Shown one piece after another: positions 13,171 through 14,933 of a stretch of 64,000 nt of DNA. This DNA is from Faecalibacterium sp. I3-3-33 (GTDB taxonomy: Bacteria; Bacillota; Clostridia; Oscillospirales; Ruminococcaceae): the NCBI RefSeq assembly GCF_023347295.1, contig NZ_CP094469.1, positions 1,674,001 through 1,738,000 of the forward strand, written 5' to 3'. A program made the translations under genes and the position numbers. The notes under the pieces were generated by a model. That model did not search any database and had not been told where the DNA came from. It saw only the letters and a program-made list of their open reading frames with translations. Numbering within the stretch: the first letter of the stretch is position 1; the number at the start of each line of letters is the position of its first letter.

Positions 13171-14933
13171 TCTTACAGGCGCTTACTGCCTACTATGAGC
13201 AGCTTGTCCGGCAGGGCAAGCTATCCGCCCCCGGCTGGGACGACAGCTTTAAGGTGAGCTACGAGCTGCGGTTGAACGATGCCGGGCAGCTGGTTTCTGT
13301 GCTCGACCTGCGCACGGAAACAAAGATGGGCAAAAAGACCGTCCTTGCCCCGCGTGCAATGCGCGTACCGGCGCACGTCAAGCGCACGGCCGGTGTTTCG
13401 GCAAACCTGCTGTGCGATAATTCCTCCTATCTGTTGGGCGCAGACGAAAAAGGCAAGCCGGAGCGTGCAAAGCAGTGCTTCGATGCCTGTGCGGCGCTGC
13501 ACCACAGGCTGTTGGACGATGTCGACAGCCCCGCAGCCCGGGCGATCCTTGCTTATTTTGACCGCTGGGACCCGGCGCAGGCTGCTACGCATCCCCTATT
13601 GGCTGAGCAGTGGAAGGAGATCACAGGCAATGCCAACCTGATCTTCGGCTACGAGGCCGCCGACCACAGCCACAGTTTTGTCAACGACGACCCTGCCATT
13701 CAGAACGCATGGCAGGCGCACTACAACGACCGCTCTGCAGGTGCAGACACGGTACAGTGCCTGATCACTGGTAAGCAAGCGCCTGCTGCACTGGTGCACC
13801 CGTCCATCATGGGAGTACAGGGTGCGCAGAGTTCCGGCGCGGCACTGGTGTCCTTCAACGCGCCCGCCTTTTGTTCCTACGGCCACGAGCAGGGCGAGAA
13901 CGCCCCCATGAGTGAGTACGCAGCCTTTGCCTATACCACTGCGCTGAACCGCCTGCTTGCTGACCGCGACCACTGCAAGCACGTTGGCGATACCACCATT
14001 TTGTGCTGGGCAGAAAACGCGGAGCCGGTCTATCAGGATGCCATGAGTATGTTCCTGTTTGGCGCAGACGAAGCCGCAGGCATTCAGGAAAGCGATGTAC
14101 AGGCTGCGCTCAAACGGCTGTCTGCCGGGCAGACAGTGCCTTTTCTGGAAAAAGAGCTTTCGCCCGACCAGCACTTTTATCTATTGGGACTGGCACCCAA
14201 CGCTTCCCGCCTGTCGGTACGGTTCTTTTTGCGAGACACCTTCGGCAGCTTTGCGCAAAACCTGCAAAAGCACGCCGAGGAAATGGCAATCGACTGCTCG
14301 GAAAAAGAAAAGTCCCGTACCCTGCCCATCTGGGCTGTGGTAAACGAGACCACCCGCACCGTGCCCGGACAGCCCGCAAAGCCGTCCCCGCAGCTGGCAG
14401 GCGACCTGCTGCGCGCCGTGCTGACCGGCGGGCGTTACCCCGCTACCCTATTGAACGGTGTGACCCTGCGCATCCGTGCCGAGCAGGCCGTGACCCGCGG
14501 CCGGGCTGCTGTGATCAAAGCATATTACCTGCGTAATTACCCTACCGAGCTGAACAAGGAGGTCTATACTGTGAGCCTGAACGAAACCACCAATGTCCCC
14601 TATCTTCTGGGGCGGCTGTTCTCTGTGCTGGAGTCGGTGCAAAAGGCTGCAAATCCCGGCATCAACACCACCATCAAGGACCGGTATTTCAACGCCGCCT
14701 GTGCTACGCCGGGCATGGCCTTCCCCACCCTGCTGCGGTTGAGCCAGAAGCATCTGCGCAAGCTGAACGACGGCCTTGCCACCCACTACGATAAGCAGAT
14801 CACCGAACTGATGGCGCAGCTGCCGGAAAGCGGTTTCCCCGCTCGGCTCAGCCTGCCGGATCAGGGCAAATTTGCCATCGGCTACTACCACCAGACCCAG
14901 AAACGCTTTGCCAAAAAGAACGAGGAGGAATAA
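13167..14933 (+). CDS. cas8c: Cas8c (Csd1), large subunit of type I-C Cascade
   Basis: Large subunit that reads the PAM and helps load target DNA. The 588-residue product matches Csd1 in length, position and segments such as [26 protein letters not shown] and a C-terminal helical bundle. It is translationally coupled to cas5c by an ATGA overlap and followed by cas7c after 4 nt. The last 120 codons carry their own Shine-Dalgarno and GTG start and probably also encode Cas11c as a separate protein (see 14571-14933). Confidence 0.96.
14571..14933 (+). CDS. cas11c: Cas11c small subunit from an internal start in cas8c
   Basis: Type I-C Cascade is known to contain a small subunit, Cas11c, translated from within cas8c. 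Here, in the cas8c frame, AAGGAGG (14556-14562) sits 8 nt before GTG at 14571. This would give a 120-residue protein, [16 protein letters not shown] onwards, helical, ending at the shared stop at 14933. Size and position match known Cas11c proteins. The site is stronger than needed for coding alone, since AAGGAGG encodes the unremarkable Lys-Glu-Val. Expression is inferred, not seen. Confidence 0.75.
   Translation: MSLNETTNVPYLLGRLFSVLESVQKAANPGINTTIKDRYFNAACATPGMAFPTLLRLSQKHLRKLNDGLATHYDKQITELMAQLPESGFPARLSLPDQGKFAIGYYHQTQKRFAKKNEEE

Follow-up and report, generated by a model that had tools for sequence, protein, structure and literature searches.

A probable nested cas11c gene with an internal start within the cas8c gene of a Faecalibacterium type I-C CRISPR-Cas system

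Does the cas8c gene of a Faecalibacterium type I-C CRISPR-Cas system encode one protein or two? The gene in question lies in a stretch of 64,000 nucleotides from Faecalibacterium sp. I3-3-33 that was analysed as a whole (hereafter the window), and which carries on its plus strand a full type I-C set of seven genes in the order cas3-cas5c-cas8c-cas7c-cas4-cas1c-cas2, followed by a CRISPR array. Genes were assigned with NCBIfam models: cas3, encoding the HD nuclease-helicase (10256..12415; TIGR01587 and TIGR01596), cas5c (12520..13170; TIGR01876), cas8c, also called csd1 (13167..14933; TIGR01863), cas7c, also called csd2 (14938..15837; TIGR02589), cas4 (15837..16523; TIGR00372), cas1c (16508..17539; TIGR03640) and cas2 (17549..17839; TIGR01573). 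The models matched by cas5c, cas8c, cas7 and cas1 are specific to type I-C, and no cas6 was found among the seven operon genes. The product of cas8c, the 588-residue large subunit of the type I-C Cascade, scores 475.8 bits against TIGR01863 (cut-off 218.65) and is also matched by Pfam PF09709 and by solved Cas8c chains. The stop codon of cas5c overlaps the ATG of cas8c, and the Shine-Dalgarno (SD)-like sequence ahead of cas7c, GAGGAGG, lies within the final codons of cas8c, whose 3' end would also contain a second gene, cas11c.

Inspection of the cas8c sequence confirmed to the base what the first-pass annotation of this DNA had pointed out, namely an AAGGAGG (14556..14562, plus strand) placed 8 nt (14563-14570) before an in-frame GTG, 120 codons from the end of cas8c. 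The GTG (14571..14573) is codon 469 of the 588 codons of cas8c, and the frame that it opens closes at the TAA at 14931-14933, so that the predicted cas11c (14571..14933, plus strand) would encode a small subunit of 120 residues in the cas8c frame. (Note that to call the SD itself in frame, as was done there, carries no meaning; frame matters for the start codon only.) The 3'-end pattern of 16S rRNA with the anti-SD CCTCC occurs at six places in the genome by pattern search. The same pattern is present at 41533-41551 on the minus strand of the window, where there is therefore probably an rRNA gene. Within the cas8c frame, two start codons are preceded by an SD match of at least 5 nt, these being the gene's own start and the internal GTG (the scan excluded the first codons and the last 20).

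A site of this kind could, in principle, arise simply from the protein sequence of Cas8c and from codon bias, with Cas8c alone providing the small-subunit domain and no separate protein being made. To some extent the window gene is compatible with that explanation: when synonymous codons were shuffled in a way that preserved the protein and its codon usage, a site with a 7-nt or longer SD reappeared at the same codon in 496 of 3000 shuffles, and anywhere in the frame in 656 of 3000. Earlier studies, moreover, saw Cas8c as a fusion of large and small subunits, as recounted in PMC7684278. The internal site of the window cas8c, taken alone, is thus weak evidence that exceeds chance only modestly, if clearly at all. 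Because the single-gene site is not significant given the protein, the case was rested on a comparison across relatives.

Relatives came from searches of 31, 297 and 391 genomes, the latter two sets being samples of larger groups. The 101 loci yielded 95 distinct aligned Cas8c rows, the window included, once two loci in which the region was not covered (L008 and L035), three duplicates (L037-L039, of L003, L002 and L004, respectively) and one locus interrupted by an insertion (L068) had been dropped; an N-terminal piece covering residues 2-270 (G182:C21) was also left out. In 95 of the 95 rows a start codon with an SD match of at least 5 nt is found at the aligned place or no more than two codons from it. 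The aligned codon is GTG in 62 rows, ATG in 26, TTG in 1 and another codon in 6, and in those 6 the start lies one or two codons off. With the SD requirement raised to at least 6 nt (and the start again allowed two codons on either side), 91 of the 95 rows retain the site, whereas 300 rounds of shuffling gave 18 rows on average and never more than 29. Moreover, when each of the 585 alignment columns with at least 60 rows was scanned for a start with an SD of at least 6 nt, the best column was the internal site (85 of 95 rows), and the second best was the gene's own start (60% of 90 rows). The SD is weakest, with a match of just 5 nt, in L041, L065, L078 and L089 (4 of the 95 rows), and the spacing is long in L065 (13 nt), L095 (12 nt), and L097 and L100 (11 nt each).

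Codon choice at the site points in the same direction. Valine at this position is encoded by GTG in 62 of 62 cases, as against 32% of the 2949 valine codons elsewhere in the same genes; in 23 other valine-rich columns the mean share of GTG is 36%, and the next highest share in the 24 columns is 55%. Likewise, valine, methionine and leucine at the site are encoded solely by GTG, ATG and TTG, and isoleucine appears in none of the 95 rows. The 95 rows are not independent trials because the relatives share ancestry. When the rows are thinned to 31 representatives (50% identity), GTG is found in 16, ATG in 10, TTG in 1 and another codon in 4, and a Cas8c tree from which the site was left out requires, by parsimony, 13 changes among the three start codons. 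The conservation of the internal site across relatives is strong and lies far beyond chance. Given that 91 rows stand against at most 29 in the shuffles, and that the protein sequence does not demand a restriction to GTG, ATG and TTG, we consider it very unlikely that the site merely reflects the coding needs of Cas8c.

Closer to the window, a cas8c match was found in 8 of the 31 Faecalibacterium genomes, its own included. All seven of the Faecalibacterium loci that reach the region carry AAGGAGGT followed by GTG (four loci) or ATG (three loci), and the eighth match covers residues 1-49 only and stops near a contig edge. An additional set, of distant relatives, comprised 35 stretches, 34 of which were covered by the profile. 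In 30 of these a start with an SD match of at least 5 nt lies inside ten codons, in one (L119) the match is 4 nt only, and three are remnants that lack the site, namely L126 (64 aa), L127 (62 aa, at a contig end) and L141 (a gene with an internal deletion). The match is 5 nt in 8 of the additional loci, three of which (L112, L114 and L115) have it 13 nt from the start; L124, which ends just past the start region, has GGAGG, 11 nt and ATG. For L125, a start nine codons away was scored at first and was replaced on inspection by GGAGG, 8 nt and ATG, from which the product would have 144 residues. Finally, L142, which like L125 counts among the 30, holds the remainder of the gene that is interrupted in L068, both in genome G458, and its internal site and downstream frame are intact. 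The insertion in G458 lies upstream of the internal start and holds a transposase-like gene on the opposite strand with integrase core and helix-turn-helix domains. To judge from its sequence, G458 could be a natural case in which Cas11c is made without a whole Cas8c.

The mRNA around the site was compared with the remainder of each gene. From -35 to +25 it is less folded than the rest of the gene in 92 of the 95 rows, and falls in the least-folded tenth in 67; this comparison is between sites within each gene, and the shuffle control, in which 199 of 200 shuffled versions folded as well or better, is for the window site only. Weak folding around the internal start fits an open ribosome site. 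When the SD match of the internal start was set against that of the gene's own start, the internal match was the longer one in 58 of 91 rows and the shorter one in 9, with 24 ties; this rough comparison took the best start within six codons for the gene start and within two for the internal one and ignored translational coupling to cas5c. The longer internal SD fits a need for two Cas11c per Cas8c, as in D. vulgaris Cascade. We tentatively raise the possibility, one that we ourselves regard as somewhat doubtful, that across the family no translation signal of cas8c is kept as strictly as the internal start, which would outdo even the gene's own start. A 2:1 ratio of Cas11c to Cas8c might then depend on how strong the two ribosome sites of a single mRNA are relative to each other, and this would hold in nearly all Csd1-type systems, even distant ones with about 25% identity.

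It has been suggested that ribosomes slow down at SD-like sequences, and the conserved SD-like stretch marks the edge of the C-terminal helical domain, where a translational pause, rather than a start, might aid the folding of Cas8c. A pause, however, does not call for a start codon at an almost constant spacing, nor would it confine that codon to GTG, ATG or TTG, as is the case in 89 of the 95 rows; in addition, the low level of mRNA structure near the codon fits initiation. We find a pausing role in place of a start extremely improbable. It is likewise exceedingly unlikely that Cas11c comes from a short transcript begun within cas8c or from proteolysis of Cas8c, and not from internal initiation on the operon mRNA: although Cas8b of type I-B systems was once proposed to be fragmented, according to PMC11899642, proteolysis leaves the nucleotide-level constraint on SD and start unexplained, and a search of 12400-15000 with the sigma-70 consensus only, which is a weak test given that shuffles average 0.8 hits, found no sigma-70-like promoter.

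Searched with phmmer, the predicted 120-residue product matched 8g9s_H, a chain of 124 aa from PDB entry 8G9S (which we take to be that of Neisseria lactamica), with an E-value of 1.1e-26, and its residues 6-119 matched residues 7-123 of the 124 of 7kha_K, the Cas11c of Desulfovibrio vulgaris, at 1.7e-26. Ten distinct PDB sequences were matched, all of them named Cas8, Cas11 or CT1133-family/Csd1. A profile of 17 homologous rows matched the solved Cas11c at 6e-41, starting from profile position 2, and because that position aligns with residue 2 of 7kha_K, the GTG corresponds to the known start of D. vulgaris Cas11c. The AlphaFold2 model of the 120-mer, for which the input was the window and 16 loci, is a five-helix bundle with a pLDDT of 88.5. 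Its best Foldseek match is 8dex_J (TM 0.83/0.85), and the 16 matches at E of 0.001 or below are all type I-C Cascade entries (two of which include the anti-CRISPR RacrIC1), the next match having an E of 1.7. In Pfam, NCBIfam and PADLOC the 120-mer is matched by Cas8c models only. Judged by near whole-length homology, a predicted helical-bundle fold and in-frame nesting with a ribosome-binding site and start codon, the 120-mer would qualify as a Cas11c.

Taken together, these findings make it very probable that a cas11c gene, started internally at GTG 14571, lies nested and in frame within the cas8c of this Faecalibacterium type I-C system. The suggestion of the first-pass annotation that Cas11c arises from an internal start, as in other type I-C cas8c genes, is supported as an inference by sequence, fold and conservation, and both of the computational checks that it had put forward agree with it: the structure predicted for the 120-mer matches known Cas11c by AlphaFold2 and Foldseek, and the site is kept in every Faecalibacterium locus that reaches the region as well as in every aligned Cas8c row. 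In the nested-gene reading, full-length Cas8c would be translated from the ATG at 13167, and a second initiation, guided by AAGGAGG in weakly folded mRNA, would take place at GTG 14571 and yield the C-terminal domain of Cas8c a second time, as a separate protein of 120 residues and five helices. On the model of D. vulgaris, two copies of Cas11c would then lie beside Cas8c in the belly of Cascade, where the pair may hold the displaced DNA strand of the R-loop until Cas3 is recruited. The analysis itself shows the site, its conservation and the match in sequence and fold, whereas a start at this codon in the living cell, two Cas11c per Cas8c and a part for Cas11c in Cascade are inferred from relatives.

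The array downstream of cas2 (18020..22391, plus strand) has 65 repeats of a 33-nt unit by script count, of which 63 are exact, one has 1 mismatch and the final one has 4. Spacers 23-26 are the same as spacers 27-30 (19532-20040), such that a run of four spacers is present twice, and spacer 49 repeats spacer 48 (21231-21333); these repeated spacers are block duplications within the array. Three further pairs (1/40, 2/36 and 8/25) are near-identical and unequal, as if the same site had been resampled from a variant target. Spacer 62 (22190-22224) matches the gut gokushovirus MT135268.1 at 34 of 35 bases, in an unannotated stretch that adjoins VP2, and the match is flanked 5' by TTT, which in the published work on N. 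lactamica type I-C is given as a known PAM. Shorter matches of spacer 62 are to KT264798.1 (the final bases of VP1) and to PQ006556.1 and PQ006674.1 (major capsid protein). The spacer 62 matches hint that Faecalibacterium may be a host of gokushovirus-type microviruses, and there is literature in which gokushovirus, Faecalibacterium and CRISPR spacer are mentioned together. Two entries named 'Bacteriophage sp.' from human faecal samples, MT838916.1 (L145) and MT836912.1, match the array over many pieces, and may for this reason be either CRISPR contigs of bacteria or arrays carried by phages.

The locus shows that a nested gene left unnamed by family libraries can be found from raw sequence alone, and conservation at the level of codons offers a simple marker with which to find Cas11c in further Cas8c genes. 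In practical terms, transfer of the Faecalibacterium system to another host, or recoding of its cas8c, would need to keep or supply the small subunit. Tan et al. 2022 reported, as cited in PMC11899642, that type I-C Cascade does not assemble without Cas11c.

How does the predicted Faecalibacterium cas11c compare with small subunits that are already known? McBride et al. 2020 found that the small subunit is translated internally from cas8c (as cited in PMC7684278 and PMC11899642), and such translation is described as apparently widespread in types I-B, I-C and I-D (PMC7684278). In D. vulgaris the small subunit was placed in Cascade by purification, native mass spectrometry and cryo-EM, in a complex of seven Cas7, one Cas8c, one Cas5c and two small subunits, along which a positively charged path may accept the displaced strand (O'Brien et al. 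2020, PMC7684278). The D. vulgaris and Faecalibacterium proteins are alike in being an in-frame, C-terminal part of Cas8c (489-612 there, 469-588 here), in start position, in helical bundle and in the type of Cascade; they differ in that identity is about 45% by structural alignment, the bacterium is distant, and a purified complex stands behind the one and sequence behind the other. For N. lactamica type I-C, PMC10865793 speaks of an 'internal cas11 embedded within cas8'. Its Cas11 (8G9S and others) is likewise an in-frame C-terminal small subunit, of 124 aa and the same E-value as given above for 8g9s_H, whereas its start is about one codon off in the profile alignment and identity is about 46%. 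More remote are Cas11b of the Haloferax volcanii type I-B system and Cas11d of type I-D, which arise by translation that begins in frame inside the gene for the large subunit (PMC11899642); these resemble Faecalibacterium Cas11c, as likened by description, in being internal in-frame products of such a gene, but the large subunits are others, Cas8b and Cas10d. Faecalibacterium is not named in the literature on type I-C, Cascade and Cas8c among the matches listed. Because the mechanism has already been published for type I-C, we regard the Faecalibacterium cas11c as an ordinary further instance of it.
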